Shown: in pieces, positions 28,261-49,640 of the stretch
Layout of the letters: every line of letters begins with the position of its first letter
Position numbering within the stretch: position 1 is the first letter of the stretch
DNA from: Coptis chinensis
Taxonomy: Eukaryota > Streptophyta > Magnoliopsida > Ranunculales > Ranunculaceae
Reading direction: 5' to 3'
Length of the DNA: 64,000 bases
Assembly: GCA_015680905.1 (NCBI GenBank)
Contig: CM027378.1
Coordinates: forward strand, 6,739,001 to 6,803,000
Notes under the pieces: generated by a model
The model's database searches: none
What the model saw: only the letters and a program-made list of their open reading frames with translations
Told to the model about the DNA's origin: nothing
Made by a program: the position numbers and the translations under genes

Positions 28261-28780
28261 GTTGTTTGTATGTTGTCGATATGATATTTTGATGTAATTT
28301 GTATTTTGATGTAATTTGGAACAAGTGTAATTTGATTTGATTTTTATGTTATCAATGTTAGGGCTTTTATTTGGTTTGATTTGGAAATCGAGTAATCGAC
28401 TAAGTTGATTCGGACGGCAATCGAGTGATTTTGAAATCGAGCGATCGACTAAGTGATATATTGATGTAATTTGATATTTTGATGTAATTTGGAACAAATG
28501 TAATTTTATTTTATTTTTTTGTTATTTGGAAATAATGTTAGGGCTTTTATTTGATTTGATTTGGAAATCGAAAGTGATCGATTAAGTTGATTCGACGGCA
28601 ATCGAGTGATTTGGAAATAGAGCGATCGACTAAGTTGATTCGGACGTCAATCGAGTGATTTTGAAATCGAATGATCGACTAAGTTGATTCGGATGGCAAT
28701 CGAGTGATCGACTAGTTGATTCGGACCTTAATCGAAAGTGATTTGAAATAATGTTCGTATGTTGTCAATAATGACCGAAA
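28261..28780. repeat. Tandem ATCGACTAAGTTGATTCGG repeats downstream of the transposase
   Basis: From about 28380 to 28740 the words GGAAATCGAGTGATTTT, GCGATCGACTAAG and TTGATTCGGACG recur every ~50-60 bp. Two larger copies also share TTTTGATGTAATTTG (28290-28320 and 28460-28490), indicating duplication of a ~170-bp block. No gene is visible. Confidence 0.75.
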
Positions 28781-28784
28781 CTAC

Positions 28785-29045
28785 ACGGTGAAGTCGTTTG
28801 GCTTTAATACAAAACAACCCAGCCAGATCGTTTGGTCTAAAGGCCAAACGATGTGGTCGTGTCGTTTGGCCTTTAGACCAAACGATGTGTCCATGTCCAT
28901 GTCGTTTGGCCTTTAGACCAAACGATCTGGCTGGGTCGTTTGAGATTAAAAGCGAACGATCTGCCGTGGTCGTTTGGTATAAAGGAAAAATGATCTGCTG
29001 AGGTCGTTTGGCCTTTATGCCAAACGATGCGGCTGGGTCGTTTGG
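28785..29045. repeat. AAACGATSTGG / GTCGTTTGG array (array 3)
   Basis: About eight half-sites such as CCAAACGATGTGG and GTCGTTTGGCCTTTA alternate in inverted orientation. The array lies between the 3' ends of the transposase gene and the opposing PMD gene. Confidence 0.85.
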
Positions 29046-29089
29046 AAGAATTTTTTTTTAAAATTCGTTTTGTTTTTACAACACTTTCA

Positions 29090-29400: not shown

Positions 29401-29409
29401 TTACAAACC

Positions 29410-31779
29410 CTAAACTGGAAACAAATCAACTATAAGCCCACCAATGTACTTGCACCTAGTCAAGTTGTGCGCTGTTGAAGGAGGACCTTGCTTCCTCGGC
29501 ATATCATTCCCACCAATTGCAGACCTCTCTAGCAAACGACTGGTTTCATCGATGACGCCGTTCATGAAAAAGAAAAATCAAGATAAGTTACCAATCAAAT
29601 GCAAAAAATCACAGTTGGAGAAAACTCAATTAAAAATCACAATACTTACAATCGGTGAACAGTTAGGCAGTGTCTCCAGGGAGGGATGAATAGGAAGAAG
29701 CTCAGGGTTCACCAAAACTACATGAGAATTCCTCGCATACCAAGTCATGTAGTTTTGATGACACTCCCATGGATAAGACGAAATAGGTCCTCGGTTGCAG
29801 AGTTGAATCACGTGATTCTGCCACGACTCCCAGTAAAGTGGCCCAATATTGGTCCAGCTCACCTCATACCCGCGTCCTGCCACAGTTCTTGTTCTCCAAT
29901 TTGGCATTGGAGGATCTTTAGGTACAAGTTGCACGTGACCCAACTGACGCACCACCCTTGCGACAGCGTAAAGCTCGACAATGTTGAAAAAACATAGCAA
30001 TCCCTCAAAAAATGCAATGTCATCGATCGGGTTTGTATCTCTGATATTTTGTAGGGATGCCAAACAACCTGAAACAAAATCAAATGTGTCATTAACAACT
30101 CTAATGATCAATTACTAAAAAATAAATATAAACAAACTTAAATACCAAATTGTCATTGAATTTAATACTTACATTGAACTCATTCAAATCATCAATTATC
30201 GCTCGATAAAACTGCAATGCATACGTTGTGTCGTAATAGTGTGGAGGTGAATGGGATGTGTCTCATGAGCACGCACGGGCCGAGGCGCGAGATATAGTTG
30301 AAGTTTGGGACTGTCATGAATACCGGAAAATACTCATAGATCCATGCCTAGATATACACAAATAGTTAACATATTGATAGAGTAATAAAATTAACATTAA
30401 AAAAATAAACTCTAAAATACTCAAGTTTTACGTAGAAGAGTCATATAGCCCGTAACCCCTTTCACCTTCGCACATATGTGGCAGCCCGAGACCTCTATAT
30501 AAAAACGCCAAAATTGTCGCACCCCATGCATACTCTTCTATCTCTCATTGAATTTCAACAACGGCCTCGGATAACATATAGGCACTCCATCCCGGACTTG
30601 TCGGAAAAAGCGGCACATCCAAAGAAAAACAGAATAAAAGCTCTAACGATCCGTTGAACATCTTGGAAACTTCGAGGCCTTCTCTACCACATTCCCAAAG
30701 CGTCACATATAGGGCTATCATGAATCTTGTTAGCAAAATGCTTCCGGATGAATTCTAGCCTTACTTTTGAAGTGAACTTGCTAGCTTCCATCTCGCCCTA
30801 ATCAAATCAATAGGGAGCCCGCACCAAGATGTAAGAGATTTATCGATTGTTGTAAATTCAGCTCCTTCGTCCCCTTGCACCGCTCTTCCTCTAATTGTGA
30901 CTCCACAGATTTGGACAACATCGCCCAAAGTCACGATCATCTCCCTAACCGGCATATGGAAGGTGTTGGTCTCCGGATGCCATCTCTCCACAAACGCAGA
31001 GATCAATGGTGGATCCATATGCTCGTGATAACCTTCCACGAGATCAAACAACCGATCCTTCTCAACCGCACGGCAAATCTAGGAGACCTTTCACATTCAT
31101 TTTGAAATTCCATTGGGATAACTTCGCTAAGTGTGAAACACACTTCAACGCTCGCGATCCTCCTCAAAACAACCGAAAGCACGATTAGATATATATGAAC
31201 GAAACAAAAGATTTTGTAAAAAGAAAATCAAAGTACACAAGAAAAACAAAATATTACCCTTCTCTCCCAAACATCGCGAGCGACATGCACCGCATAGTCA
31301 TACAACAACTCTGACTCATACGGGCCTCCCCCATACACACCTCTTTGAAACTCCAAATCATCATTGGATTTTCTTACGAAATCCAATACCGGAGGTGCTT
31401 CTTCCACTGGTGGTACGTCTTCTACCACATATTCTTCAACATCATCATCCTGCTCATCCTCCTCCTCACTCTCCTCCTCACTCTCTTCCTCACTCTCCTC
31501 ACTCTCCTCTTCTACTATACTCTTCCCTTTGTCTAAACCTACATTAGTATCACTATCTACACTATCTACACTATCTTCACTAAACGAATCAACCTCAGGA
31601 ACCTCAGGAACCTCTTTTTCCAAATGGTCCCCTCTACGCGCTGATGCCGTTAAGCCGTCTGCCCTATGTCTTTTTCTTCCAACTGCATCACCGCTAGAGA
31701 AACCGCCACCAAACAATTTCTTAACACCCTTGAATGTAGTTTTCGCTACATTCTTCACATTCTTTGATCGAGGACCCAT
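29410..31779 (-). pseudogene. Plant mobile domain (PMD) gene 1, transposon-type, decayed
   Basis: The start ATG at 31777-31779 opens MGPRSKNVKNVAK, a basic then strongly acidic Ser/Glu-rich leader, ending RKSNDDLEFQRGVYGGGP. After an intron the PMD follows: PPLISAFVERWHPETNTFHM, VTLGDVVQICGVTIRGRAV near 30870-31010, FILFFFGCAAFSDKSG near 30600, and DDIAFFEGLLCFFNIVELYA near 30000. The last exon ends NLTRCKYIGGL (about 29440). PMDs occur in MAIN/MAIL1-type host proteins and in MULE or LTR elements. The exon 2 start and several joins are out of frame, so I read it as broken. It converges on the MULE transposase gene, with array 3 between. Gene 2 (46285-48709) has the same exon order. Confidence 0.8.
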
Positions 31780-32520
31780 CGCTACAAAGAAAAATAAAAC
31801 AAGTATTAGTAAACCATATTTAAATAAACAATGTACAAAGAAAACCACTAGAAAAAAGAGATCATCCCAGTCGTAAAACTAATAGACTTATAAGCTTGCT
31901 ATGATAACTCCAAGTATATATGAAGAAATAGAATGAGGCGTTACGCTATCCAAATTCTATCGAATTTTGGGCAGAGTTTCCTTTGTTTGGTCAACATTTC
32001 ATATACTTAAACCTGTCATAACCTGGAAATCAATAATGACATCCTTCCAACAACCATATGTACATATAACCTAACTTTTACACGACGATTGCAAAATGTA
32101 TATATATACAAGATCTGTTTTCGTATGAACCGGCCATTTATGTACATCAAGTATTACAACAAAATAACCGGACTCTCTACAACAAAATGAACTTGACTCG
32201 TCCCCTCGTCAAGCATGGGGAAACCACCCAAAAACCACCTTGATAACATACATTCAAGAAGTTTGAAAACCAAAGAAAGCTTCTCACCTATAATGCTTTA
32301 CCGCTTTAGTTTTGTTCCCTCAGTATCCGGACCTTAAGCAAGTACTGTAAAAGCCGCATGTGATCAAGGTCATTATTCATTAGTCAAGACTCAAGAACAT
32401 AAGCAGTATGAAAGGTGAGTAAAAGAATGTACAGAAACACTAATCATAAAATGGTAAAAGTATCTTCTCTTAAAACATCAGGCCCTAAAGGAAAATACTA
32501 GTTATGAAAGATGAGCACAA
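31780..32520. other. Upstream region of PMD gene 1
   Basis: No gene is supported. The right boundary of the MULE-related DNA should lie in here or shortly beyond, but I could not identify terminal repeats or a 9-bp target duplication. Confidence 0.3.
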
Positions 32521-32523
32521 CTC

Positions 32524-33458
32524 CTAACTCTTAGTCTTTACGTCAATAAGCACATTATCAAGCTTTACGTTGTAGTGAATTATTGGTGGCTCACAATGCT
32601 CATGCAGAAAAGAGAGCCCAATTGCAATCTGAATTGCAATCTCATACAACTTCCCCCATTCTATGTTAAGGTGATTCTTGAACAAAATTTTATCGAATGA
32701 TCCGTTTTCCACGTGATTAAGTAAACAAGTGCTTTCATGTTGGTATCAAAGCAATCGATGCGGCTCATCCTTAATGTGAAATGGCGACCGCCCTAAGGCC
32801 ACAAGAAAAAAGGCCTAGTAAAGTTTGGTATGTGTATAATTACGCACTATCAAAAAAAAAGAAATTTCCTAGAAAATAGGAGTTTGATTCACACAAAAGC
32901 CTTAAATTCCTGAAAACATGGACTTTAATTTCAATCATTCAACTAAACTCTCGATAAATAGGCCTCTCTAATTCAATCGAATACTCTTAAACATCTTCGG
33001 TGTATAATCTACATAGAATCCTATAAATTAGGCATTCATAGTAAGTAATTCTATAAGAATCTTCTTATAGAAGAAGTCTCACCGTTTAGATTGTTCAAGG
33101 CTTTTGATTTTTTAAGGCCTCACTGGGTCCCTGCTTTAGGCCTCGAGTTGGGTTTTTTGAAAGCAATACCCATATAGTTTGATCGGGTTTTGATGGGAAG
33201 TTTTGCCCATGGTGCCCACTTCACCGAATTGTTTCCTCATAATTTCTTTTGTGTTATTGTTGTCTTTTAGTACCTTCACGCTATTTTGACACCATTAGGA
33301 AACTTTGTGTAGGCGTCTCCAAACCCACCAACACCTACATTCTTCTCGAGATTTGACGTAAATCTCTTAAGTTCATCAAGTGAAAATGATTTTGGTTTCT
33401 CGTTTGTTAGTTTATACAAGAAATCTTCGATTGGTTGTGAACCGTCATCGTGTTCCAT
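32524..33458 (-). pseudogene. Receptor-like kinase fragments (LRK10L-type), decayed
   Basis: Two minus-strand pieces match a receptor kinase. One (33276-33458) has FSLDELKRFTSNLEKNVGVG and FPNGVKIA, the start of the kinase N-lobe with an altered Gly-rich loop. The other (32524-32712) has ENGSFDKILF, WGKLYEIAIQIAIGLSFLHE and IIHYNVKLDNVLID, around the catalytic loop. The latter reads HYNVKLDN where the family has HYDIKPEN-like, so the catalytic Asp is missing. The lysine and DFG regions are not visible, and the intervening DNA does not encode kinase. The pattern FPNGVKIAVKVL is typical of Lr10-like/LRK10L kinases. It is a dead gene relic. Confidence 0.75.
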
Positions 33459-33459
33459 C

Positions 33460-33950
33460 GGTTTATCTCACAAAATATAGGTTGTAGTCCAACAAAGTAG
33501 AGTATGAAAAATGAGTGATAACGACAACTTCGAAAAGAAAAGATGACAATGAGCTAGACATGAATTTCTATAGATTAGAGAATAGAAAATAGACACCGAT
33601 GATATATCATTTATCCAATAAACAACTAGTTAGTTACGTGGAGATATTTCATTCAAGGATATCTTGGAGGAGCAATAGAATAAAAGTTCTAGGATTTTTA
33701 GTGCAACTTGATTGGTGCATATATTTTTGGTATATTATCCTAAAACTACTGAGATGTTCCAAAATGGGGGTTTTCAATAAACTTTGGTGAATAATTACTA
33801 AATTTTCTCGGGGGCATGTTGTATATTGTATTATTTCATAATGAAGGCTTCGATACATACCAAAATGAATGGAGTCTGTGTTTTTAGATAGAAGTTGTTC
33901 TTCTCAAACTGTTGGACGAGACTAAGAGTTAGGAGTAGATACTTTGTTGG
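33460..33950. other. Intergenic, no feature recognised
   Basis: AT-rich with only short chance frames. It lies between the kinase relic and a dispersed repeat. Confidence 0.3.
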
Positions 33951-33954
33951 ATTG

Positions 33955-34162
33955 AAGGATCGCGAGAGGGATTTTGTCGAGGTTTTTGGGTGAGAAATCG
34001 CAAGAGAGATGACCGGTTACAACAAGTTTTCCGGTTTTTAGCGATTAGGTGGGGGTGTACATGGCTTTTTGTTGGGCTTTGTGATTTGGGGGCTTGGAGG
34101 CTGCCCAATCCAATTCGGTGGCTTCAACACTTGGTGATGTGGATGTTGAATTTTTTGTTGTT
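33955..34162. repeat. Dispersed repeat, copy A
   Basis: Shares GAGATGACCG, TTTCCGGTTT, GGTGGGGGTGTAC-like, GGGCTTTGTGATTTGGG-like and TTGGAGGCTGCCC-like blocks, in the same order, with 36600-36800. The family is not identified. It abuts the 3' end of the ALOG relic. Confidence 0.6.
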
Positions 34163-34164
34163 GC

Positions 34165-34558
34165 AGGTCTCTTTCTCTTCTTATGCTCATACCCTCTAGC
34201 TTTAGCTTGACCATCTTTTACTTTCCTCAAATACATACTCACAGATCTTGAAGCAAACAAATTCGTTTGAAGGCTTCTTCCACCATTCTCCTCATAAGCA
34301 GCACTCAATCGTCCAATCATAGAATCAACACTACCCTAGTAGTTGAAATGGACAATGACAAGGCCCTAGTGGATTCGGATTGCCATAATAATGACAGTCC
34401 AACAAATGCACCCTAGTATTACCAAACTGATTTAAATTGTTCAAAAAGTCAATAACTTGACCATCACTACATCTTTCCAAAACTAAAGGGGGTTGATGGT
34501 TTTTCAAATACTTCAAAAAAGTATTCCAGTCTCTCTTCTTTTGTGTCTCGTAACGACT
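34165..34558 (-). pseudogene. ALOG-domain (LSH/G1-type) gene relic
   Basis: The minus strand reads [59 protein letters not shown], then [20 protein letters not shown] and [14 protein letters not shown], ending KKRKRP. This is nearly the whole ALOG domain of LIGHT-DEPENDENT SHORT HYPOCOTYLS-type nuclear DNA-binding regulators, including its zinc-ribbon insert and C-terminal nuclear localisation signal. A single-base loss near 34334 (family CPLRQAWGSLD) shifts the frame. No in-frame start codon lies upstream before a TAA. Its reading frame runs on into dispersed repeat copy A. It is a recent-looking pseudogene, as the sequence is otherwise well kept. Confidence 0.85.
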
Positions 34559-34629
34559 TAGTGGAACTAGTAATGAGTCTTGTGTGGATTCTATACATAA
34601 TGTAGGTGAAGGTTCTAATGTTGAGTCCG

Positions 34630-35640
34630 TAACTTAAAACTGCAAACACAAATGCCACATATTAAGAAACCAAATTTCTACAGTATTGGGCTTAATGTTA
34701 AAGTTGCAACTGCAGTCCAAATCACCTGAACTAATTTAAATCATGAACCCATATAAGTTGCGGGTGATTCCAAATCACGTTTCTTGTTATTATTGAACCT
34801 TTTCCATAACTTGGTTTTCTTGAATCTCCTTTTTAACACCATTCTTATGCTCATACAAGTTTGATCTTTTGCAATAATATCTTGTTCTTGCATATACCTT
34901 TGTAGGGTTCTTTTCCTTATTTTCATCTTTCATGTAGTTTCCTAGCTATTTGCACTTGAATATTGCTACTTCAAAGATGAAGTTCATAGCATAAACGTTT
35001 TGTTTCTTCTATTGGTACTTCAATGATCATTTAACTCTTAAAGCTTATTCTATAACAACAAAGAGTCTCAAAACCCCTTCTTCCTCTAGTCCATTCTCCC
35101 CAAACCCACCAATTAATGAGCTCCAAGACACCAAATCAGACCTCATAATACCATTAAAACTCTCACCGAATCCCAAACACACCCACAACTTGCATACATA
35201 CTGCGAACTTCATAATACACTCAAACGACCCTCTAAACACTCCACATTAGATTTTTCATGTTATGATATTTTTCATCATGAAACATGAACAAGAATTAGA
35301 TCACTGCCTGTCCGAAAACTAGACGCGCGACCCTCTAAACACTCCACATTATTAAAAAAAGTAGGTAAATCCTATCCAGCGTTCTTTGTGTTTCAAAGGA
35401 TCCTTCAAGTTTTGGACAGACCGACTTAATCCCTGTTCAATCATCATCATATAAGAATGCTAATATGACAACTTGAGTACTTGACAAGACAAATATTCAT
35501 TTATGAATTACTGATGAGTTCGTTGCCATAGAAAAAACTCGGCACTAGTACAATCAAACTAAGATTATTCAGTAAGCACAAATTATTCAGTTTAGTATTA
35601 ATTTTCCACATTGTTAACTAGCTTATTGTGTATATGTTCT
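34630..35640. other. Intergenic, nothing recognised
   Basis: Includes a basic minus-strand frame (34741-34926, KIRKRTLQRYMQEQD) without a family I know. The GACCCTCTAAACACTCCACATTA block occurs twice (about 35229 and 35330), a ~100-bp local duplication. Confidence 0.3.
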
Positions 35641-35641
35641 A

Positions 35642-35852
35642 CTTAGGTGCTGGCGGTGATGGCTTTATTGCTCGAGACATATCCTTTGTCAATACTGCCG
35701 GTCCATCTAAGGGTCAAGCAGTCGCTCTTGTAGTCACTGCAGATAAATCTGTGTTTTATCGATGTTCCATTATTGGTTACCAAGACACTTTGTACACCCT
35801 CTCGAATCGACAATTTTACAGAGAGATTGATATCTATGGAACTAAAACCTAG
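35642..35852 (+). pseudogene. Pectin methylesterase exon fragment
   Basis: An open stretch reads [20 protein letters not shown], then [36 protein letters not shown] and IYG. These are the central catalytic-region motifs of plant pectinesterases (GDGF.ARD, QAVAL, GYQDTLY, RQFYR), which demethylesterify cell-wall pectin. The family continues VDFIFGN after IYGT, but here a stop follows within two codons. There is no N-terminal pro-region or GNA.A.FQ segment. It is a single relic exon preceded by an AG acceptor-like site. Confidence 0.85.
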
Positions 35853-36599
35853 TACACTTTAGTTCACACAATCGACACTTAGTACACTTTGTACCCTTAA
35901 AAAAAAAATCTTTTGTTGTTCACTTTCAATGCATTGATTCTCTTTTTCAGTTTCTCTCGAAGAAAATATATAGGAAATTCGAGCTCATTTTCTCATACTA
36001 TATAAAGATGAACAAGACAAACATCACATTCCCATAACTCATCAAATTAAAATTAAGAAGAACTAACCTGAATTAATTAAAGCATCACATTCCCATAAGG
36101 AGAGACTTGGCTGGTCGGGTGTTCGACGATCGTGGTTTTCAGAGGGCGAAAGCAAAATGGAGCCAAAAAGCGTGAGCTCCCTTTCCGCTTCTTTCTTCTT
36201 TTCTGCAGACCACTCAAAGTAAAGCAAAGCAGCGAAATTGGGTAACTTCACATTGAAAACTTCGAATTCACAACCATCCATTATCACCAAACGACCATCC
36301 ATCATACATTATACATTATACACTCGAATTCACAACCATCCATCATACATTATACACTATTCTAATTACTTATGTAAAACGACTAATAAAGTTCGGAATT
36401 GAAATAGGATAAAAGGGGAGGCGTGTACGAATCGGGATGAAGAAGATTGAAACGCAAATCAAGGGCAAGCTGTTGGCGATAAACAGGTAAAGATGAAGGG
36501 CAAGCTGTTGGCGATAAACACGGCTTTCTTGCTACTAGAACAAACCCTTCCTCATAGTCGAAGGTTCAATTGGATTGCTTCAATTCGGATTTTGAATTT
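35853..36599. other. Intergenic, no gene supported
   Basis: A minus-strand frame (36063-36305) has no recognised family. CATCATACATTATACA recurs near 36300-36350 and AGGGCAAGCTGTTGGCGATAAACA is duplicated near 36462 and 36497. Confidence 0.3.
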
Positions 36600-36805
36600 T
36601 TTTGGTTAGGTTTCGCGATAATTGGCCGAAGGGTTTTGGCAGAGAGATGACTGAGAGAGATGACCGAAGGAACATGTTTTTCCGGTTTGCGATTTGGTGG
36701 GGGAGGTGTACTTGGCTGGGCTTTCTTGTTTGGACTTTGTTGTTTGGGCTGGGCTGGAGGCTGCCCGATCTAATTTCAGTGGCGCCCAATACAGCACTCC
36801 AAACT
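36600..36805. repeat. Dispersed repeat, copy B
   Basis: Same-orientation relative of 33955-34162, sharing GAGAGATGACCG, TTTTTCCGGTTT, GCGATT.GGTGGGGG, GGAGGCTGCCC and CAGTGGC-like words. The element type is unknown. Confidence 0.6.
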
Positions 36806-36821
36806 ATACATTTCCTTATCA

Positions 36822-36874
36822 TTGTTTCAGTCAGAACTAGTTTGGATTTATTATAGTGGTTCTGACTGAAACAA
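36822..36874. repeat. Perfect 16-bp hairpin
   Basis: TTGTTTCAGTCAGAAC (36822-36837) and its exact reverse complement GTTCTGACTGAAACAA (36859-36874) flank a 21-base AT-rich loop. It could be a small foldback element end or a structured transcript. The stem is short for a plant miRNA precursor. Confidence 0.75.
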
Positions 36875-37498
36875 GTGCAAAATATTGAAGATCAAAGTCG
36901 GGATAAGATCAAAGTGACGGATGGGCAAGTAGAGTGTTATCAGCATGACATAACTACTGCAGAAACTCTTCCGGGCATTAATTTATATTATATATACTCT
37001 TTCCTGAGCAGTGTATTCGCTTAATGGGTCGCATGACGCATTTCATTGTTGAGATGCACCATAAATTTCAGAGCCTTACAAACACATCATTTACATGATA
37101 TACTATATATACAAGACTAATGACACATTTGACATAAGACTGATGGCTCTGATGATGATAATAGTTTGCTAAACGATAATACAAACGACAATGTCAAAAC
37201 AAGAACCTGTGACTGCCATACGGAATAACTGATCTAAGCTGATCCCAACACTTTCCTGACTCAGAGCTATCCAGGATAAAAAGATAAGCATCTTTATAAC
37301 AGGTTATTCAAATTCACCCTTTCGCAGTTTAGTGCCGTTTTCAGCACAATACTGGCAAGAACGCTAGATGGCACAAAAGAAATAGCGTGCGTAACTTTAG
37401 TATACAGACAGACTTGAAGCTCATGCCCCGCTCACAATCAAAACAAGCAAGGGTTTGGAAAAGCAAGAAGGCTTCACCGAACTGTCATTGAAATCTAG
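36875..37498. other. Intergenic, nothing recognised
   Basis: No frame of note. It lies downstream of the F-box relic, which is on the minus strand. Confidence 0.3.
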
Positions 37499-38252
37499 GC
37501 TCCTATATTGAAATCTACTATTTCGATCCAGGAGTCGTCCTTCCCAGCCCTACAAAAGAACAATTTTCTGTGAACAGCCGGCATTGCTACGAGCCTACGA
37601 CTATGGAAAGGTGAGAAGAAGAAGATCTACCCGGACCTGGGTCAGGAGGACAAGTAATTACCTTAGCAAGGTGGAAATCACGCATTTCATCCATATAATA
37701 ATGCAGGTTTGTGTGATACTTGGAAATGATACAAACAGGAAATTCTTCTTTTTCATCACCATCATCACCAGTAGTAGGTTTTTCAGCATAATCAGTAGGT
37801 AGTTCATTGGTATCATCAGGATCTCGTCTAGTGCTTCCCAGTTTTTTTTTGTGAAGGGCTGAAAAAGTTGCTTCTCTGTATTCGCATGAACTGTTACAAA
37901 CCATCCAAAAGAAGCACCACATATTCGACGTTCAAGTAGTTCTGGTGTCTTTAATTTGTAAGTAATTCCATCCAAAATACTGAAAACCCGAGGAGACCAT
38001 CACGACAGTAGTTCTCCTCATCGCCCACCACACTTTTGGTGTTCTCAATATCATAGGTAACTAGAAGCCATGGTAGACGACTTTTGTGACCTAGGGCAGC
38101 CGCTGCCTCACCCCGAAACAACAACAGATCTCCACGATGGGCATACAGAAGCGAAACGGATCAAATCTGGAAGTTGTTTAAGGTTTTCTTTGATTGCATA
38201 TAAGAGTTCTTCAAGAAGTTCACACCAGGTGTCAACTTGGTCATCGTAAATT
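37499..38252 (-). pseudogene. F-box protein with DUF295 domain, decayed
   Basis: The minus strand gives an F-box start WCELLEELLYAIKENLKQLP DLIRFASVCPSWRSVV (38140-38240). The frame then changes to FRGEAAAALGHKSRLPWLLV, then to YKLKTPELLERRICGASFGW FVTVHANTE. The C-terminal DUF295 signature RKLFFCRAGKDDSWIEIVDF follows near 37500-37560. F-box proteins are substrate receptors of SCF ubiquitin ligases. At least two frame changes and an in-frame stop (after WRSVVVSG), with no start codon upstream, mark it as a pseudogene. The part between about 37600 and 37890 is poorly conserved. Confidence 0.8.
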
Positions 38253-38259
38253 CGTAATA

Positions 38260-40088
38260 CTATTTTCCAAAGCCGATCGTACGACTTGGAATATTTATAT
38301 CAATATTCAAGACAGAATCCTAGGCGAAAAACAAACAATCATGAAATATGGTCTAACCAGGTTCAGTTAAGGTGTTGAGGATGGCTACTGTATCTTCGCC
38401 AAATCTCAAATGATTTATTACCATATATACGTTTAGAATTTTGGATTACGTAACTCTTGGTGTACAAGGATTAAAATAATCAATACCAAACACTCTCTAA
38501 TTCTTGCATATATAAGATGATCGCTAAGCATAAAGCCGCTGTATAGTGGACGAAAAATCTTAATGGGACATGGCGCTGCCAAGTGCCAACCAATGTTAAC
38601 CTCTGGTCTTCTCGGAAGTCGGCACAAAACATACCCAGCACAGTTGACTGGGCGTTACTGCAGGGTGCCCTCAACTTTTAAACCCACTCCTTAATGCTGG
38701 AGAATCAATAAAATCAGATTTACCAGATATCTGACTTTAGTTCAGGTACAACAAAGATATCTCGGACCACTGAAATCTGGGTCTAACCAGTACCGAGGCT
38801 GTGGTTGGCCTCACTTGTGCTCTTTCCATTACTGGGAGATGAGGTGTTGGGCATCACACAATCGAAAGGCGTTTTCTGCTGGGAAAGTTATACATAGGGA
38901 CTGTTGGCGATGGACGACTACATAATACCTTGCTGAAAAGGACAGGACATTTGTGTAAAGGTTATAAAGCCAACATCCAAAAGATGTAATTCTCTTAAAA
39001 TTCCATTAATGTGGAGGTTGAAAAGATAGAGAGATCCAGCTAAAAGCGTGATTTTCTTTACAGTCCACTGATGAGAGACCCCAGGGTGGGGCAAAAGAAA
39101 AGAAGGAAAGACTAATCCATTAGGTAGCAAAACTGCAGAACACACAACAAAACCAATGTCTGACTTCAACCTTTCCAAGCAAATAGTCTTTTTCATTGTG
39201 CTGCACTTCGAACTATCCTAATCGTCTGGAGATGTAGTGTGAAGTCCTGGACTTAATAGTTGTCAATGTCCATAGCGAAGAATCAAAATATTTATTGGGA
39301 AAGTTGCATACTCGTGGTTGACGATCAACAGCATAATTCATAATACTCGGAAGTCAGAACGTCGGACCCGCTTTCATCAACCTGCTTTAATTTTTAACAA
39401 GAAATCCCCCAAATCATCGTTAACCCATTCAGAATAGTTTCGACACTCCCATGCCATGGTTATAGGACTTGTAGGTGGTCTACTGCTCTCTGAATGTATT
39501 AGTACCCAGAAGCTAGCAGAGCCTCATTTTTCTCAAGTCGACTACAACTATGTTAATAATTAATATCATGTCCTAAATTCTAACTTGTGTAATAGAACTT
39601 GCAATGCGCATAGCAAAAATAATCCTCATCAATCACGCACAAAACTCTCTAGGGAGAGTCACTATGGAGAAGTTATGAGTGTAACTATACAAGTTGACAT
39701 CATTCCAAGATGTCCCGACTCCTGATGTTCCAATATTGTGATTCCAAGTTACATGTTGCATAGATACTCAAAAATTCTTAAGTAAAAAACAAAAAAGATG
39801 TTTACATCTCAAAATTTATATTAATATTAATCTCATTGGAACCTTTGGTTTTTCTTCATAAATAATACCAACAACATATAACTACAATGTACACGTACCT
39901 AAAGCATATTAATTTACCAAAATAACGAAGACAAAAATTAGACATCTCTCGCCTCCTTCATCAGACAAAATTGAGATCAACAATGATACAATCAACAGAG
40001 AAAGGAAAATAGAGAACTATTTTTCTTTACCAGCTTCTACCTGTTGAAATTACAAGGTTTACCTATACGCAGAACAACCATGCTTCAA
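38260..40088. other. Intergenic to IDD downstream region, no gene supported
   Basis: Minus-strand frames at 38433-38674 and 38918-39196 lack any family I recognise, though they are richer in GC than their surroundings and may be more gene relic. The last few hundred bases before 40089 probably hold the 3' untranslated region of the IDD gene. Confidence 0.3.
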
Positions 40089-42210
40089 TCAATCAGATTT
40101 GGCTTCTGAATTGCCTTCTACTATTGATGAAGCAGTGCCATCAACAACATCCAGACGACCACCAACAGCGGTACCTCGCATTGATGAATATAGAGCTGAT
40201 ACCCCCCCAGTTGGAAGGCCACCACCACCCAATCCCATTCTTAACCCCAGAAAATCATGTGTGGGCAGTTTTGACCCAAACAGTAGAGATGGACCCGTCA
40301 CCAATTCCGTCAAACCAACACCCCCTTCGGTAGGATGTCCAGATGCAGATGCAGTGTTCACCTCATGGCCTGCATTCCACTGTAAAGTCTCCTGCTGCCC
40401 AGATGATGAAGCAACTGACATATTAAAACCCCGCAACAATGACGGATTAGAAGCTGTAGCACCCATCTCTGCTGCTTTCTGAAGCAATGCAGTGGCTGAC
40501 ATTGCAGGTTGTGATGGCCGAGCAAATTGAGAACTATCTTTCCCCGTCGTCCCAAAGAGTGTAAAGCCACTATTGGAAGAGAGACGGAGTAATGGGGGTT
40601 CTGTAACAGAAGTCGACTCCCGAGAGGCTACACAAACTAAATCCGAAAATGACGAGGGTTGAGGTTGCAAATTTCCACTCAATGCTGAACCAAACACACT
40701 ATTAAACATACTGGTACCAGTGCTTGAGCTACCACTGCTTCCATTTACACCAGCCAGAGGCGGGTTCAATTGGAAATGTCCCACAGGATTTTTCGGCAAC
40801 TCTGTTTTTTGATAAATTGGTAACTCTGTTTGACCTAAAACAGAACAATTACACAAAAGGAAGTTTAGATAGCAGTCTTTTCATCAAATTCTACAAGGAG
40901 CTAAATCTCCCCACACACACTATTGTCTTTTAAACAGCGCGTCCTTTGTATCAATGCAAGTATCTAGTCTCTATTCTGCAAACACTAAACCTCAACAAAA
41001 TCTTTAAAAACTTGTTCTTGGGGGAGGAACGAAAAGTTTTGCAAGCTCATACAGCTAATTATCTACCTCTAAGGTGAATATCCATGACTACATAAACACA
41101 ACGGGAAAAAAGGGGTAACTCTGTTGAATTTAAATTAGAACTATCACACAAACGGCAACTTCGTGCCACTATGCTATCAATAGAAAGCAATATTATCATC
41201 TACTACTCATCATTTTTGGACCAGGAGCAGAAATTTTTTTCCGTCTCTATAACGTTTTAATCAATGAGGGCAATGCTGATTAAAATCTCCACAAAGTCAT
41301 GCAGAACTTGAAACATGGAAGGAAAAGAGAGTGAAAACTCTCACTCCTCTTACCCCTAACAATCTATTTCAATCTGAATCTCCATAACTAAACGAAAATA
41401 TTATATCTTTATAAACTACAAACAAAAATTTTACCAGTATTCTCAACTGGTTGAGCCATAGAAACCACCGAAGACGAATTCGGCGACGAACAAACCACCA
41501 ACGCAAGTTTCTGAAGCTTCCCTCCTCCTCCATCTTTCCTCGAACTCTCATCCGCTAAAGCATCGCAAAATGCTCTATGCGTAACAAAACTATCTCTCCT
41601 ACAAACACCATATCAAAAAAAACAATCAATTATGGAAAAACACAAAAAGAAACCTAAAAAAAAAAAGAAAACAAGAGGCAAACCTTGAAAACACAGTGCC
41701 ACAATCACATTTATACTCTTTACTCCCACAAGTCTTTCCATGAGCTTTCCAATCAGACTGAACCGCATATTTCTTCCCACATTTATCACACTTCCATTTC
41801 TTCTCCCCATGTTTTCTACTAAAATGTTTCTTAATCCCAGTCAAATCACCTAAAGCTCGTTTCGGATCATGATGAATACAAGTCGGTTCAGGACAAACGT
41901 AAACTCTTTTTCTCACTACTTCTTTATTACTTCTCTGTCTTAACTTCCACGGCAAATTATGCCCACGTCTATGCAATTGTAAATTCTGATCACGTTGAAA
42001 CCCTTTGTTACAGATCTCACATATGAATCTGTTTGTTGCCATTAGTGTCTTTGGGGACAACGATATTACTTCTGCTTCTGGATCTGGCATTCCTGGTAAA
42101 TTCCTCTTCCTCTTTACTGCTTCTGTATTGTTTGTTGAATTTTTTGCTAATTGGTTACCTGATGATGACCCACTTGCTTCACCTGACGAATTTTCCACTT
42201 CTTCTTCCAT
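40089..42210 (-). CDS. INDETERMINATE DOMAIN (IDD) C2H2 zinc-finger transcription factor
   Basis: Three exons (41684-42210, 41435-41598, 40089-40834) with GT-AG introns give 478 aa in one frame. The ATG at 42208-42210 is the first in frame. A nuclear-localisation-type stretch KRKRNLPG (33-40) precedes the ID domain. That has ZF1 FICEICNKGFQRDQNLQLH, the LPWKLRQRSN linker, ZF2 YVCPEPTCIHH...HFSRKH, and the two CCHC-type fingers WKCDKCGKKYAVQSDWKAH and YKCDCGTVFSRRDSFVTH. The C-terminal IDD marks MSATALLQKAAEMG and DFLGL are present. IDD proteins bind DNA and, with GRAS partners such as SCARECROW or DELLA, control development; the subgroup is not resolved. No defects seen. It is the best-preserved gene in the 33-49 kb stretch. 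Confidence 0.95.
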
Positions 42211-43133
42211 AATTAAGGTTTTCAGTATAATCAAAAAAAAACTGATATATCGGGCGATACGGATGTGTTTCGGAGGGAGAGCGTTTTTTTGTTTCGTCTG
42301 GTTTTGAAAAAAAGGACAAAATAATTTTAGACGGAGAGTGTATGTTAGTGAACTAGTTACTAGGGTTAGATAGAATGACCGTGGTTAGGTGTGGAATGAG
42401 GTGGAGAGATTTGGACCGTACACGTATTTAGAGAACGTGTTTGTCTGTATTGTTTGGCATCTGTCAGAGTAGGTAATAGGACAAAATGAAGGACGACCTA
42501 AAGAGTTTGTCGGTTTGTGACAAGGGTTGGATTTTGTGGAAATTTTGAAAATTGTTTTGTTTTTATGTACGTGTTATAAGGCTATAAGCTTGGCTTGTGT
42601 AAGTTGTCTTGCATCTTGCAGAGGAAAATCGCATGCGTGTGTGCCTCGCTTTTTTATCTTCAGACTTTCTTTGACAACTTCTTTGGCATTTCAGAATAGA
42701 CACGTACGTACACACAAGACACAACTCGTTTAGCTTGCAAGTTGCAACACCACTAGGACCCCATACTCTTTCTAATAACTTGCTAGTAATAAGCGAGCAT
42801 CCTAAGAACTACTTGTGACCTCTGTCAAAGTGGGGTAACGCCGTAACATTTCAACCAACTTCAAGCTGTAAATGATCGTGCAAAGAAAAAAAGTGTTGAT
42901 GGACTAATGGGAGTGTGGCTGTCAATACTTAAACATAAATTTGAGTTGGATTACAGACTGTATTGAAGCCTTGAAGCAGCCCTCACATAGTTCAAATTTG
43001 AGTTACCAAAATCCAAAATGACCCGTTTCTAAAAAGAGTCCTGTTACGGACACCCCATATTGTGTTGGGCAGACCCTGAGTTGGCCGTGCCCATTGTGTT
43101 GCAAGAAATGGGCCTCAGCCCCCTCGTTCTATT
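42211..43133. other. IDD upstream region, no gene
   Basis: Promoter side of the IDD gene; 5' untranslated sequence is expected just above 42210. No other coding signal is seen. A short purine/pyrimidine mix near 42240-42330 precedes AT-rich DNA. Confidence 0.3.
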
Positions 43134-44370
43134 ATGGTTGTATAAAAACACCCTCCCATCGGCACATACCTCTTAACCTCCCTGTTTTATAATATCTCAT
43201 CAAATAACCTCCCCGTTTTTTCAGTTGAGAAAAAATCACGGTTGTTTTTTATTTTCCCAAATTTTTTTGCTTCCTTTTTTACCCTTTTAGATAAACATCA
43301 CATATTCATCGCTATTTCAAAGGAAAAACACTTATTCAACTTCAATAACATGATTCAAACATTGATTCAACTTCGATAATACGATTCAACTTGGAAATTA
43401 AGGGAATAAGGTTCGATAATGAAGAAATCAGGTTCGACAATGAAGAAATCAGGTTCAAACAATGAAGAAACAAAGTTTCATGATGAATAAATGAAATAAT
43501 CACTTATTCCCTTGTTAGTCGTGTCTCTGGTATTTGTTTTATTTATTCTTCTTCTTCTCCTTCTTCGATCTATTTTGAACATTTTCCATCACTATGTAAA
43601 TTGTTTTTTGTATACAAATTTTAGTATGCAATTTTTTTTTTACATAATGATGTTTCTTTGCAAATCCCATCAATATGTAAATATGTTTTTGCATAGAAAT
43701 TTCACTATGCAATTTTATTTTTACGTAGTGATTTTCTATGAAAATTTATTTTTACATATTGATTTTTCTATTTTTCTTCTTCATCTATTCGAACAAATTG
43801 GCTCCCGTCACTATGTAAAATTGTTTTTTGCGTACAAATTTGAATATGCAAATTTATTTTTACATAGTGATTTTTCCATGCAAATCCAATCACTATGTAA
43901 TTTTGTTTTTGCATATAAATTCCACTATGCAAATTTATTTTTACATACTGTTTTTCTATTAAATTTTGTTTTACAAAGTGTTTTTTGAAAGTCTATTTTA
44001 TCTTTTTGATATATGAATTTTTGCATTTCGAAATCATGACTTGAACAAGTTTTTTCAAATGATATCATCTTCAAATGGGTTTCGATCCCAAAATCGTCTC
44101 GTAAAAACCGGATCTACAACTTTCATGAGACAGCTACCACTTTTGTAATTTATTTTTGTCATGAAATGAATGATGTTAATATTTTTGCATTTTGTGTTAT
44201 TTTGAAGTGATTTCTCTGCCAAACACAAAAACTGGAATTCTCATGTTGAAAATTGAAAAGAGAGGAAAGAAGAAGACATTATAGGGGTATTTTTGTCTTT
44301 ATCATGTTTTTTCTGAAAACAGGGTGGTTTCATGGGTTGGTTCGTTTTGAAGGGTGTTTTATTGAACCAT
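43134..44370. mobile_element. Non-autonomous TIR transposon (candidate)
   Basis: The left end ATGGTTGTATAAAAACACCCT and the reverse complement of the right end, ATGGTTCAATAAAACACCCT, match closely. Similarity continues inward through CCTCCCTGTTTT / CCACCCTGTTTT for about 55-60 bp. The interior is AT-rich repeat DNA without a transposase. I found no convincing target duplication, so the superfamily is open and the outer limits are approximate. Confidence 0.5.
43585..43985. repeat. AT-rich tandem repeats CACTATGTAAA / TTATTTTTACATAGTG
   Basis: Blocks like CACTATGTAAATTGTTTTTT, TATGCAATTTTTTTTTACATA and their variants recur four to five times every ~85-110 bp inside the TIR element. Complementary words (TTTACATAGTG versus CACTATGTAAA) let the region fold. 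The 158-aa frame across it is a periodicity artefact. Confidence 0.7.
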
Positions 44371-45451
44371 TTACCTGGCAGGGAGATTTTTCTTAAAACC
44401 TGCATTGTGTTGGGCGCATCTTCGAATCATACACCCCCCAACCAAATATCCAAGAAACCGGCAAACCGGCTACCACCCTTCGTCCTTCAAACCCTCGATT
44501 TCGCGATTTCTCTCGACCAAAAACACACAAAATCAAACTCGCGATTTCTCTCGGCCAAAAACCCACAAGATCAAACTCGCGATTTCTGTTTCAATTCTTT
44601 GTTTCCATCAAACTCTCGATTCTTTACCTCGATCTCAATCAAACCCACCCAATTACTGCTCGATCTCGATCTCGATCCCAATTCGTCGATCAACTAAACA
44701 GTGTTTTACTAAAACCACAATTAGTGAGTTCGGTGAGTATCTGAAACCACCTCAAGCTCTTCTATTAACACAAATTTCAAAGTGAGTTTTTTGCTTTCAA
44801 AGTGAGTTTTTTTATGCATTGTAGTTTGTCCATACATTGTAGTTAGAGTGTTCAAGATATTTGTTTATACATTGTACACTGTATTTGGTTGGTTCATACA
44901 AGTCAAAAAATAATATCGTAGTTTTTTTTGCCGTAGTTTTAAAGTGAGTTTGTTCATACATCGACCAACCAAATACACGTAAACACGCTCCACCACCAAT
45001 TTAAAAATGTTAAGTTTGTATGAAGTGTACGTAAATTGTATTAAGTTTGTATGAAGTGTTGTGATCTTTGTGCGACATTGTTGCTTGTAATTTGCTAGAC
45101 TAATTTGACATTATAGATTGTGTTTCTATTAATATCTTTGTGCAGCATTGTTAGGCGTTAATTGAATCGAGTTAACATTTGTATTGGGTTAATCATTAAT
45201 TGATGATATATTAGGTGGAAGTTTTTCTTGTGGTTTCCCATTGACGTTAATTGAATGTGTATTATTAAGTCCTAGATTATGTGTAATGCTTCCATTTAAG
45301 AGTTGAGTTTGAATTTTGAATAGTGCGGCATTGTTGGCTTATTTTGGTATATATGTTGAGAAATGACCTTGTACTAATTTTGAGAGCTAAATTGAGTTAT
45401 TGTTCTTTTATCTCGAGACGTTATACTAAGTTCTTTATCTCGAGATGTAAG
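44371..45451. other. Region upstream of the H2A exon, no gene recognised
   Basis: CT-rich sequence near 44470-44700 (repeated CGATTTCTCTCG and AACTCGCGATTTCT words) resembles a 5' untranslated leader, followed by intron-like AT-rich DNA. No first exon of a histone gene was found here. Confidence 0.35.
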
Positions 45452-45641
45452 GCATGTTTTGTTGGCAATAAGGAATGATGAGGAATTGGGGAAGTTACTT
45501 GCTGGTGTAACTATTGGACATGGTGGTGTTTTGCCTAATATTAATCCTATTTTGTTACCAAAGAAGAATAAGAAGGCTGACAAGGTTGAAAAGGCTCCTA
45601 AGTCTCCTGGCAAAGGAACTAGGTCACCCAAGAAAGCCTAA
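45452..45641 (+). pseudogene. Histone H2A (H2A.W-like) terminal exon without its first exon
   Basis: After an AG, the frame reads [39 protein letters not shown] and a Lys-rich tail ending in GTRSPKKA and stop. This is the H2A docking region plus a C-terminal tail with the SPKK motif typical of plant H2A.W, which marks heterochromatin. The histone-fold first half (AGLQFPVGR... region) is absent upstream for over 1 kb. It may be a gene piece captured by, or stranded beside, the PMD element starting at 46.3 kb. The tail is intact and about 190 bp remain open, so the relic is fairly young. Confidence 0.85.
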
Positions 45642-46284
45642 TGTTGGGGTTTTCTTGTTGTGACGGTGGAAGTTTAGTTTTTATGTAATGTTGGGGTTGT
45701 TTTTATGTTTTTAGATTTTTGAATGTGAAAGAAGAGTTTAATATAGTAAGTAGTAGTGGTAGTGTTGTTGTTTAGGACTTAGGTGATGTGGAATTGAAAT
45801 GAATGAAAACATCTTGTTTTGTTTCTTCTATGGATTTGTTTCTTGTTGTGTGTATTTGAATCTTACAAATTTGTGCATCTGGGGTTTTTGATATAACAAG
45901 ACTATAGTCTGGCACACAAAATCAATCAATTTACACATTAGGATCTCATATTTTTGTAAGGGCCCATATTTTTTCTCGAAAGCTTTATAGTTGGACGTCT
46001 CAACTTTTTCTAAGGTCCCTGAGCTTACTATATGTTCTGATTGTTTTCAATTTGAATTAGTTGAATGTGTTATGGATATGTATGTTTTAGACTTTAGTTA
46101 GTGAATTCCAAAGTTAATAAACACTTACAAGTTGAATGTCTTAGCATTAGAAGTTGTACATTTGCTTGTTAGTATTAGAAGTTGTGCATTTGCTTGTTAG
46201 TATTAGAAGTTGTGCATTTGCTTGTTAATAAACAATTTGAATTAGTTGAATGTCTTATTTTTAACTCCTATTTATTTTGTAGCA
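45642..46284. other. Former H2A 3' flank and PMD gene 2 leader
   Basis: Non-coding. A ~30-bp unit (TAGTATTAGAAGTTGTGCATT) is repeated three times at 46144-46226, just before the PMD start. Confidence 0.45.
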
Positions 46285-48709
46285 ATGCCTCGAACAAAGA
46301 ATGTAGCAAAAAGTGTTTTCACGGGTGCTAAGAAGTTGTTAGGTGGGGGGAGTAGTACTTCAGGTCGCGATGACCCGCCTGAGAAAAAGAGAGGAAGGGG
46401 AACAACCACCTCGGCATCAATTCGTAGAGGCAATCGGAAAGCGGATGATCCCAGTAATGTTGTAAGTGGTGTAGAGTTAGGAAATCAAAAGAGAAGAAAG
46501 GAGACAATTCTGAGTGATGTAGATGTAGATGTAGATTTAGATTTAGATGTAGATGTAGATGACGATGACATAAATATGGATCGTGGGAAGAGTGTAGTTG
46601 TAAGTCATGCTGATAGTGAAGAAGATGACGAAGAGGGTGTTGATGATGTAGAAGAGGAGAATGACGAGGAGGAAGAGGACGCGGAGGATGAGGACGCAGA
46701 GGAGGAGGATGACGAGGAAGTCCCTGAAGTCCTTGTGCCTGTACCCCCAGTGAATATTATGAGAAAGTCCAACAATGACTTGGAGTTCTAGAGAGGCGTT
46801 TATGGAGGTGGCCCTCGTGTGTCACATATGTTGTATAACTATGCGGTGCACGTGGCTCGCGATGTTTGGGAGGGGCAGGTAATATTATTATATATTGTCT
46901 ATTAGTATTTAAATTTTGTATTACGAAACCTTGTGCATACATTAATACTGAGTTTTTGTTGTTTTAGGCGGAGCGAGGTGTTGAAGTGCCATGGGCACCT
47001 AAACAAGTTGGTACAATGGGATATTGTCGGAGAGTGTTCAGACTGTTCTAATTTTCATGTGGAGATTCAAAGGACTGGCTTATGTGCTCTGGTCTTAGGT
47101 GTATACATGCATCAGGATCCTGTGTTGGTCTCTGCGTTTGTGGAGAGGTGACATCCAGAGACCAACACGTTTCATATGCCGTGGGGCAAGATGACAATCA
47201 CGTTGGACGATGTTTCCCAACTCTTAGGAGTTCTGATAAGAGGCAAAGCAGTGACTAGGGACACTAATTTGACCCTGGAACAGACAAAAAGACTCCTCCA
47301 CAAAGATCTTGGCATACCCATAGACAAGATAGATGCGGAGATGAAATTCAATAAGTTCACTTCCAAAGTTAGGATGGATTTCTTGATGAAGGAGTTTGCT
47401 GGGAAGGTAACAGATGAAGATTTACGGGATGAAAATGGGGTTGTTGTGAAGAAAGCGTCAACCCAAAAAGAGTTGCAGTTTGCTATGAGAGCTTATCTGT
47501 TATTTTTTTTTTGGATGTACCGCCTTCACCAACACGTCTAGAACTGCAGTTCCCGTTTGTTATCTGAGACTGCTTATGAAATTTGCCGAGATCAGAGAAT
47601 ACGCGTGGGGTGCAGCCTTACTGGCTTACTTGTATAGGGGTCTTGGGACTGCCACAAGTGCCAAGGTGAAGGGTGTTTCAGGCTATTTCACTCTCCTACA
47701 GGTATTAGTTTTTTTTGTTTTTCTTTTCAATGTCAATTTTATCTATCTATTATAATATTAACTGGGTGTCTATATTAATCTAGGCATGGATTTATGAGTA
47801 CTTCCCGGTGTTCAGGCCATTCCCAAACGAGGACTATCAGTTGAGCATGTCGCGTACTCATAGGTACTCAGTTACTTTCGATCTTTTATGCTAGCACAAC
47901 GGTGCATTGAAGCATACCCGAGCGATGATTGATAATATGACTTGTACCGATGTAAACATTTTTGTATGTAAATAGTTTTATTTATTAATTGATATTATTA
48001 GTATGTGGTTAATGATTAATTTCCTCGATCATATGCTATTTGACAGGTTGAATGGTATCCATATGCTGAAGTCCGAGCTACACGGCCGGTGGATGAAATA
48101 GCATTTTTCGAGGGATTTATATGCTTTCTTGATAATGTCGAGCAGTACAATGTTTTGAGGGTTGTGCATCAGTTGGGTCATATGTAGTTTGTACCCTCAG
48201 ATCCCCCAAGACCAAAGACCTCGACGCGAACTACTTCCGGACGCGGGTACGATGTGAAATTTAATATTGCGGCTTCCTACTAGAGTAAATGGCAGAATCA
48301 CTTGATACAACTTGAACATCGAGGACCCATTCCGTCTTATCCATGGGAGTGTGTTAGTAGATACATGAGTTGGTACAAAAATAATAGTCATATTTGAATG
48401 ATAAACCATGATCATCATAATCACTACCCCCTACAGAGCCTTTCATATCATAATCTGATGAGTTAATACCTTACAACGTTAGTTTTTGTTTTTTTTTTGT
48501 TTTGATATTTTATAAATGTATATACTAATGTAGTTTTTCGTTTTGATATTTTACAGCACCCCATGGTCGATGAAGTTTCTCGCTTGCTCAATCAAGGCCT
48601 GCAATTGGGTAGGATTGCGATTCTAGACGATGCACGGAACGAGTTCATTGAGGCATACAATTTGACCCGGTGCAAGTTCATTGGTAGACGATATCGTGAA
48701 GGAGCATAA
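46285..48709 (+). pseudogene. Plant mobile domain (PMD) gene 2, transposon-type, decayed
   Basis: The ATG at 46285 opens MPRTKNVAKSVFTGAKKLLG, a basic then Asp/Glu-rich leader ending RKSNNDLEF. The PMD follows over several exons: DPVLVSAFVER, HPETNTFHMPWGKMTITLDD, VSQLLGVLIRGKAV, KVRMDFLMKEFAGKV (47100-47410), AEIREYAWGAALLAYLYRGL (47590), AWIYEYFPVFRPFPNEDY (47785), DEIAFFEGFICFLDN (48090) and a last exon ending NLTRCKFIGRRYREGA. It shares this order with gene 1 and also the leader and end motifs. Stops in place of conserved codons (e.g. TAG where gene 1 has Gln after NDLEF; TGA for Trp in VERWHPET) and frame changes show it is broken. No transposase is beside it. Confidence 0.82.
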
Positions 48710-49009
48710 GTGAAGAAGCAGCTTGAGCATTGATCTCAACTCTGGAGTTCTAGTTTAGATTGCTTTTGTTGTAAAGAGTGACGTTGTGATATCTATACCC
48801 AAATACTTGTTTTTGTCGTATGCTATTTCAAAATATTATTTGATGTTATGTGAATTTGGTTTTGATGTTATGCGATTCCATTTTATTTCAAAATACTTGA
48901 ATTTGATGTTGCAATTCCATTTTATGTCTTTGGTTTTGAATTTAGAAGTGTTAGAATTGTTGGAAGTTGAATATGGAAGTTAAGAAAAAAAGAAATCGAG
49001 GTTCGGCAA

Positions 49010-49290
49010 ATTTCAGTCCCAAACAACATGGCCACACCGTTTGGGACTTAGTCCAAACGGTGTAGCCACACCGGTCAAGAGGCAAAAAAACAGAAGTTTG
49101 GGATTTTTCAAAGTTCAAATCCCAAACGACATGGCCACACCGTTGGGGACTTAGTCCAAACGGTGTGGACACACCGGTAAGTTTTTTTAAGTCCAAATAA
49201 AAAACGACATGGCCACATCATTTTGGACTCAGTCCAGACAGTGTGACCAGACCATTTGGTGTGCAATAGAAACGATCTAGCCGGGTTGTT
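49010..49290. repeat. AAACGACATGGCCACACCG / CGGTGTGG array (array 4)
   Basis: Three to four inverted units of CCCAAACGACATGGCCACAC, with TTTGGGACTTAGTCCAAACG as the joining palindrome, follow PMD gene 2. They are of the same design as arrays 1-3, 200-500 bp downstream of a PMD 3' end as for gene 1. Confidence 0.85.
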
Positions 49291-49640
49291 TAAGCCTCGA
49301 ATTTTCTCTTTCCGTCACATCACTGTACACTTGAATAATTACTACATGCATAATTACTATATGTATAATTACTACATGCATAATTACTACATGCATAATT
49401 AAGTTTAATTTAGATTTACCTTATTCTTATTAAATGAATCATCATTCATTCCTCTATTTTCTTCACTTTGAACTTGTTCTACATTTTCTTCTTGAATGGG
49501 GTAATGACCTTGCCTCTTTTTGTGTGTGAGATGGTATATGGATGATGTAGATAGATGATGGTCGTTGAACAAAATAGAAGCATATCAAAACCTAATTATC
49601 CCTCAATGAGTAAAGGATGAGTAGGGTATCGTTCCACTTT
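49291..49640. other. Intergenic with ATAATTACTACATGC short repeats
   Basis: TGCATAATTACTA is repeated about four times at 49335-49400. The outer end of the second PMD element may lie here, but no terminus was identified. Confidence 0.4.

Follow-up and report, generated by a model that had tools for sequence, protein, structure and literature searches.

The 64-kb window, that is the whole stretch of Coptis chinensis DNA that was analysed, contains a decayed transposase gene of a Mutator-like element (MULE), two decayed PMD genes and four arrays of a short palindrome, whose positions are collected in Table 1. PMD gene 1 is antisense to the transposase gene and convergent with it, one array lying between the two, and PMD gene 2 is located further along the window beside another array. 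The window also contains a zinc-finger gene at 41.6-42.4 kb, which matches BIRD-IDD models in Pfam and marks the DNA as plant-like, and direct repeats 82-97% identical (418-922 / 18965-19469, 10281-10755 / 17278-17753 and 1213-1856 / 18287-18924), probably nested retroelements or LTRs. A 150-bp sequence is present twice upstream of PMD gene 1 (33980-34122 and 36630-36783), with 73% identity.

Table 1 Coordinates of the genes and palindrome arrays in the 64-kb window.
Feature	Coordinates	Strand	Basis or content
Array A	22943..23851		22 core matches at 15 or more of 24 positions; upstream of the transposase
Transposase gene, predicted first coding exon	24710..24934	plus	open frame and GT donor
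Array B	25021..25250		CAAACGACATGGCCATGTCGTTTG-type core; inside predicted transposase intron 1
Decayed MULE transposase gene, remainder	25300..28257	plus	MULE domain, open frames
Array C	28777..29044		8 cores; between the convergent transposase and PMD gene 1
PMD gene 1, decayed, convergent to transposase	29440..31779	minus	Pfam, open frames, shared blocks
Decayed PMD gene 2, without a transposase in its vicinity	46285..48709	plus	Pfam, open frames, shared blocks
Array D	49020..49292		4 cores; beyond PMD gene 2

The MULE domain (PF10551) of the transposase was placed at ~26.07 to 26.46 kb, with an open frame from 26271. The Pfam match had an E-value of 2.4e-20 for the piece in which X replaced its two stops and of 2.9e-9 for the unaltered ORF. 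The predicted first coding exon, which matched no Pfam family, is followed by a predicted intron 1 running from a GT at 24935 to an AG at 25299. Pfam scans of the broken pieces showed no SWIM zinc finger, and neither DUF1985 nor DUF287 was matched on the pieces scanned (8 in one scan and 7 in another). The C-terminal region at 27.6-28.26 kb carries the Cys and His motifs SCGYRA and GNHFVNVEL, in an arrangement that resembles the OTU protease of plant MULEs. Searches for an OTU domain with the transposase pieces, the X-joined pieces and the read-through gave no relevant Pfam or PDB sequence match, and the AlphaFold model of the unaltered 120-aa C-terminal half exhibited a pLDDT of 37. An earlier note on this DNA had described PMD gene 1 as facing a MULE-OTU transposase across an array; the MULE domain and the convergent orientation hold, but the OTU part of the description found no match in Pfam or the PDB. 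The same note had described PMD gene 2 as being without a transposase, and this was borne out by a tblastn search with four transposase pieces, in which the window gave no further copy and the strongest remaining match (E 0.26) fell within PMD gene 2 itself.

A piece of PMD gene 1 matched the Pfam PMD family (PF10536) with an E-value of 5.9e-15, a second piece of the same gene with 6.8e-6, which is under the cut-off of the family, and a piece of PMD gene 2 with 6.4e-14. No Pfam family was matched by the leader exons of the two genes or by one piece of gene 2 that is 46 aa long. When a piece of PMD gene 2 was searched against PDB sequences, the result was 0 matches. As the earlier note had proposed, the leader, the exon order and the last exon are common to both genes. 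In each of them the coding sequence starts directly 3' of an acceptor-like TTTGTAG sequence with a lysine-rich leader, M(G)PRxKN..VAKxxFxGxKKLxGGG, which is followed by an acidic repeat-like stretch, the PMD blocks and then the shared last exon, whose C-terminal end is xNLTRCKxIG. Frameshifts and in-frame stops disrupt the two genes alike.

The divergence of the PMD pair was estimated on the 347 codons of the blocks that read openly in both genes, leaving out the frame-shifted stretches, the codon pairs with a stop and the section of exon 1 that is acidic and repeat-like. The pair exhibited a pS of 0.51 and a pN of 0.25, corresponding to a dS of 0.85, a dN of 0.31 and a dN/dS ratio of 0.36 (bootstrap 0.26-0.50), with a remaining silent-site identity of 0.49. 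The PMD protein was thus under purifying selection in the past, during much of the history of the pair, and the decay came later. The two genes are old relatives and, with a dS of this size, PMD gene 2 is therefore not a recent deletion derivative; the earlier suggestion that it belongs to a recent transposase-less derivative of the element carrying gene 1 is not upheld. In the same way, the spacers from stop codon to array at the two loci aligned with an identity of 0.73 compared to 0.70 in shuffles (sd 0.02) and the 300 bp upstream of the genes with 0.69 compared to 0.66 (sd 0.02), only 1-1.5 sd over the shuffles. Among the introns, intron 1 exceeded the shuffles (0.77 versus 0.66, sd 0.04), and intron 2 and intron 3 gave 0.77 versus 0.74 and 0.67 versus 0.72, respectively.

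At 45438-45638 on the plus strand, 0.6 kb to the 5' side of PMD gene 2, we found a C-terminal fragment of histone H2A (Pfam Histone_H2A_C, E 2.9e-17), which ends in an SPKK motif, presumably like that of H2A.W. Four N-terminal H2A words were absent from all six frames of the 64-kb window, and the fragment is possibly a captured gene fragment. Its presence makes the surroundings of PMD gene 2 a mix of gene pieces and, together with the lack of a transposase remnant nearby, would suit a PMD gene of the host type, decayed at its original position beside an unrelated or captured repeat. Against this count the leader and last exon that it has in common with gene 1 and an array with the same motif, and we consider this origin very improbable.

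The unit of all four arrays is a 24-bp palindrome, CAAACGACATGGCCATGTCGTTTG, with a linker of typically 10 bp, each unit being a pair of inverted half-sites, CAAACGAC / GTCGTTTG. Array A, the largest of the four, has AGTGTACACT as its commonest linker; it makes up long inverted arms and is separated from the transposase gene downstream by ~0.9 kb. Exact 34-bp steps were counted at 10 of 21 positions in array A, 2 of 3 in array B, 6 of 7 in array C and 0 of 3 in array D. With a threshold of at least 16 matches out of 24, the window gave 36 core matches, of which two overlap, and all 36 fell within the four arrays, compared to 0, 1, 2, 2 and 3 places in five first-order Markov shuffles; with at least 15 out of 24, the window gave 44 places, 6 of them outside the arrays, and the shuffles 3-8. 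Profiles built from three arrays recovered the left-out array in all four trials, with best E-values of 3.3e-5 for A, 5.4e-5 for B, 1.8e-4 for C and 7.1e-4 for D, and gave 0 matches at E<=1 elsewhere in the 64 kb. In these trials the units of the excluded array were absent from the profile, the list of units itself coming from the core scan.

The distance between array C and the 3' end of PMD gene 1 is 395 bp (29044 to 29440), and that between the 3' end of PMD gene 2 and array D is 310 bp (48709 to 49020). Both lie within the 200-500 bp of the earlier note, and the profiles established that the motif is the same. Because arrays A and B carry the motif too, the former upstream of the transposase gene and the latter in its intron 1, it is not confined to PMD 3' ends. 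The tie between array and PMD gene that had been claimed stands in that the motif lies beyond both PMD genes, but it is not specific to this position, the motif being a noncoding feature found across the element. Five of the 13 half-sites outside the arrays (~10 expected overall) cluster within 2 kb at 35222-37182, on the 5' side of PMD gene 1. This span is possibly a decayed array, but the full core profile finds nothing in it. A collection of non-plant viral contigs, which is uninformative on the distribution in plants, did not contain the motif. Relatives by protein were likewise absent from non-plant viral contigs (three pieces) and genome contigs (one piece), a result uninformative on plants.

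We then compared cores and linkers between and within the arrays. Between arrays, the core identity was 0.63-0.75 and the linker identity 0.24-0.39 for units picked by their core, a choice that biases the comparison, and both a picking by half-site and the leave-one-array-out profiles were used as repeats. With the left half-site as the criterion for choosing units on the plus strand, the unpicked right half exhibited identities of 0.47-0.81 between arrays and the linkers 0.30-0.37; on the minus strand, the values were 0.39-0.56 for the unpicked half and 0.26-0.29 for the linkers, with no picks in array D. The second half-site is thus shared above the linkers in every comparison possible, and more clearly on the plus strand. 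Between arrays C and D the core identity was 0.63 with the biased picking, and the right half gave 0.59 without it, which is modestly above the silent-site identity of the PMD pair and counts against the reading that we favour below. Within array A, the linkers (0.78) are as alike as the cores (0.77), the mark of a local duplication; the corresponding values for linkers and cores were 0.45 and 0.78 in B, 0.45 and 0.67 in C, and 0.60 and 0.69 in D.

RNA folding of the arrays compared to shuffles gave z values of -52.9 for A (20 shuffles), -4.4 for B, -14.9 for C and -7.4 for D. Such stable folds follow from the palindromic nature of the arrays, and folding alone does not demonstrate an RNA role. 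The linkers themselves exhibited a self-complementarity of 0.86 in A, 0.50 in C and 0.20 in B. The much greater fold stability of each of the four arrays relative to shuffles, and the palindromic linkers of array A, which look as if alternating inverted halves had been copied, would be in line with independent minisatellites or short foldback repeats, unrelated to the MULE, that landed at these places or grew by slippage or hairpin-driven duplication, and whose folding transcripts would feed small-RNA silencing. Spreading of one repeat, however, predicts something other than a core that is kept while the linkers differ between arrays, and the profiles find the motif nowhere else in the 64 kb. 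Moreover, the chance that two unrelated arrays lie <=400 bp 3' of both PMD genes is ~4e-5 by a crude and after-the-fact estimate, and an independent origin of the arrays appears quite unlikely to us. The CpG observed/expected ratio was 1.41 in A, 1.19 in B, 1.30 in C and 0.72 in D. For comparison, the body of the transposase gene had a ratio of 0.89, the two PMD genes had 0.87 and 0.77, and the three large stretches outside these loci had 0.54-0.72; the motif itself contains a CpG.

The ends of the elements were searched by local alignments and by a joint scan for target site duplications and terminal inverted repeats (TIR), for the putative element around the transposase with PMD gene 1 (element 1) or without it (~22.9-29.05 kb), and for the one around PMD gene 2 (element 2). 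No ends stood out. Exact 9-bp pairs numbered 36 for element 1 compared to 27-44 in five mononucleotide shuffles, 12 compared to 7-19 for the short element without PMD, and 79 compared to 70-78 for element 2. The best terminal inverted match was 13/20 for element 1 (12-13 in shuffles), 11/20 for the short element (10-13) and 13/20 for element 2 (11-14). Near-exact pairs (8 or 9 of 9) were in excess, with 870 versus 810-860 for element 1, 285 versus 149-240 without PMD and 2061 versus 1763-2027 for element 2; since mononucleotide shuffles lose low-complexity structure, the excess was put down to such sequence and was not read as a signal. In the local alignments, the flanks of element 1 were at chance and those of element 2 gave one low-complexity TTCTTC match (44, control maximum 37). 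Upstream of both PMD genes, a TC-rich, leader-like match scored 41, where 40 shuffles reached at most 34; it may represent a leader exon common to the two genes. The match of 44 versus 37, and another of 40 versus 35, are low-complexity or telomere-like, and the three matches above controls were rejected as shared termini. The shared termini and 9-bp duplications that the earlier note had asked for were thus not convincingly found, nor was a TIR, and a single element is for this reason unproven; a full element accompanied by a transposase-less derivative is possible. Tandem repeats with telomere-like TTTAGGG/CCCTAAA sequence are present at 24026-24560, on the 5' side of the transposase, and at 29214-29430, on the 3' side of PMD gene 1, and a MITE-like inverted repeat with arms 83-88% complementary lies at 22359-22689, just outside array A.

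Comparison with foldback elements places arrays A and C on the two flanks of the transposase, B inside and D alone. The arrays could on this basis be the terminal or subterminal repeats, serving the transposase for cutting, of a transposase-only MULE or foldback-type element at ~22.9-29.05 kb, with PMD gene 1 as an outside neighbour and array D as a solo remnant. The very long inverted arms of folded array A point in this direction, and transposase sites near MULE ends are established, long Mutator TIRs containing binding sites of the transposase (PMC3310237). This arrangement would, however, leave array B inside the transposase gene, and array D adjoins PMD gene 2 on the same side as array C does gene 1 and at a similar distance. 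Neither the TIR nor the exact 9-bp duplications of the short element were above the shuffles, only its near-exact pairs being so, and antisense PMD genes inside MULEs are on record. Taken together, we consider the transposase-only element rather unlikely.

The reading that we favour, and to which we give an even chance of being right, is that the segment at 22.9-31.8 kb represents the remains of one MULE, that PMD gene 2 is an old relative of its lineage and that the arrays are noncoding sites for an element-encoded protein. The locus would then derive from a single Mutator-like element of a plant, in which the PMD gene was antisense to the transposase gene and converged on it, and PMD gene 2 with array D would correspond to an old relative in which a recognisable transposase was lost or never present. 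The palindromic arrays would be cis-acting noncoding repeats of the lineage, placed upstream of the transposase, in its intron 1 and between or beyond the gene ends. Since the palindrome consists of inverted half-sites and is kept while its surroundings change, we infer a protein-binding site, with CAAACGAC / GTCGTTTG as the site of a symmetric dimer. The recurrence of the palindromic word in the gaps around the transposase gene and PMD gene 1, and again beside the distant PMD gene 2, suggests that an element-encoded protein lands on it, and the likeliest role of the arrays would be to be bound by such a protein keeping the element expressible, in the way that VANC acts on the tandem motifs of VANDAL elements. 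The candidate binder would be the PMD protein in the first place and the transposase in the second.

Several observations count for this one-element reading. Four noncoding sites hold the motif, and the profiles give no match at E<=1 in the remainder of the window; the arrays agree in their cores and not in their linkers; and the dN/dS of the PMD pair is 0.36. In addition, antisense PMD genes in MULEs and tandem targets of VANC have been published, a use of PMD against silencing has been proposed, and CpG ratios are higher in arrays A-C (1.19-1.41) than outside (0.54-0.72), though the motif contains a CpG. Against the one-element reading count the failure to find element ends, the less clear sharing of half-sites on the minus strand, where array D had no picks, the CpG ratio of array D, unlike that of A-C, the fact that the MULE-borne PMDs of Ikeda 2017 are described as transposase fusions and not as separate antisense genes, and the small sample of two PMD loci and one transposase, to which the non-plant collections added no relatives. 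Transposon silencing in Arabidopsis requires PMD proteins, and a short palindrome travelling with PMD genes makes the idea of a PMD anti-silencing function directly testable.

Two convergent genes, a transposase and an accessory gene, are also found in MuDR of maize (mudrA/mudrB), which has long TIRs and whose mudrB is not a PMD gene; the layout here is alike, but the accessory gene is a PMD gene and no long TIRs were found. Closer to our locus, Table 1 of Dupeyron 2019 (PMC6446971) lists antisense PMD in MULE groups 42 (with no TIR listed), 49 and 50, and sometimes in 47 and 48, and the same paper gives PMD and/or DUF in half of the VANDAL members. The convergent PMD-MULE layout, which the earlier note had credited to this sequence, is therefore not new. 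The likeness to these groups (MULE-Solanaceae_1, MUDRAVI2, MUDR) lies in a MULE transposase with an antisense PMD, here in what would be one element; palindromic arrays, present here, are not mentioned in the available part of that paper. The open-licence literature searched, with most subscription papers outside its scope, yielded no paper that connects palindromic arrays with PMD-MULEs. For the EPSPS cassette of Amaranthus palmeri, a 2017 paper (PMC5240378) reports one region with palindromic short tandem arrays as well as six PMD genes, and here too both are present; the part of that report available to us draws no tie between the two, and we take it as a lead only.

An anti-silencing use was suggested for MULE-borne PMD by Ikeda 2017 (PMC5418596), on transposase fusions in grasses and Amborella, and a 2021 review (PMC8616336) made a similar suggestion for transposon PMD; Nicolau 2020 (PMC7156037) linked MAIN/MAIL1 to the DOWN promoter motif. 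In VANDAL21, the VANC21 protein binds the motif YAGTATTAY and induces a loss of DNA methylation (Hosaka 2017, PMC5735166; Sasaki 2023, PMC10398659), its targets forming tandem repeats that lie 5' of VANA21, the transposase gene, and within introns of two further genes, VANB21 and VANC21 (PMC5735166). Our locus resembles these elements as a MULE with an accessory gene and tandem short motifs in an intron and upstream of the transposase (PMC5735166, PMC10398659). It differs from them in that VANC has DUF1985/DUF287, neither of which was matched on the pieces scanned here, and in that the motifs of VANC21 and VANC6 (AGTTGTMC) are both distinct from the CAAACGAC palindrome. By analogy, the anatomy of the locus would fit the VANC scheme with PMD in the place of VANC, and the binder could also be the transposase or a host protein. 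We put forward, as a tentative and fairly doubtful proposal, that the MULE-borne PMD may itself bind DNA at specific sequences and counteract silencing. The VANC strategy would then have been invented a second time by an unrelated protein, with the palindrome, co-inherited with the PMD genes, as its target across the noncoding regions.
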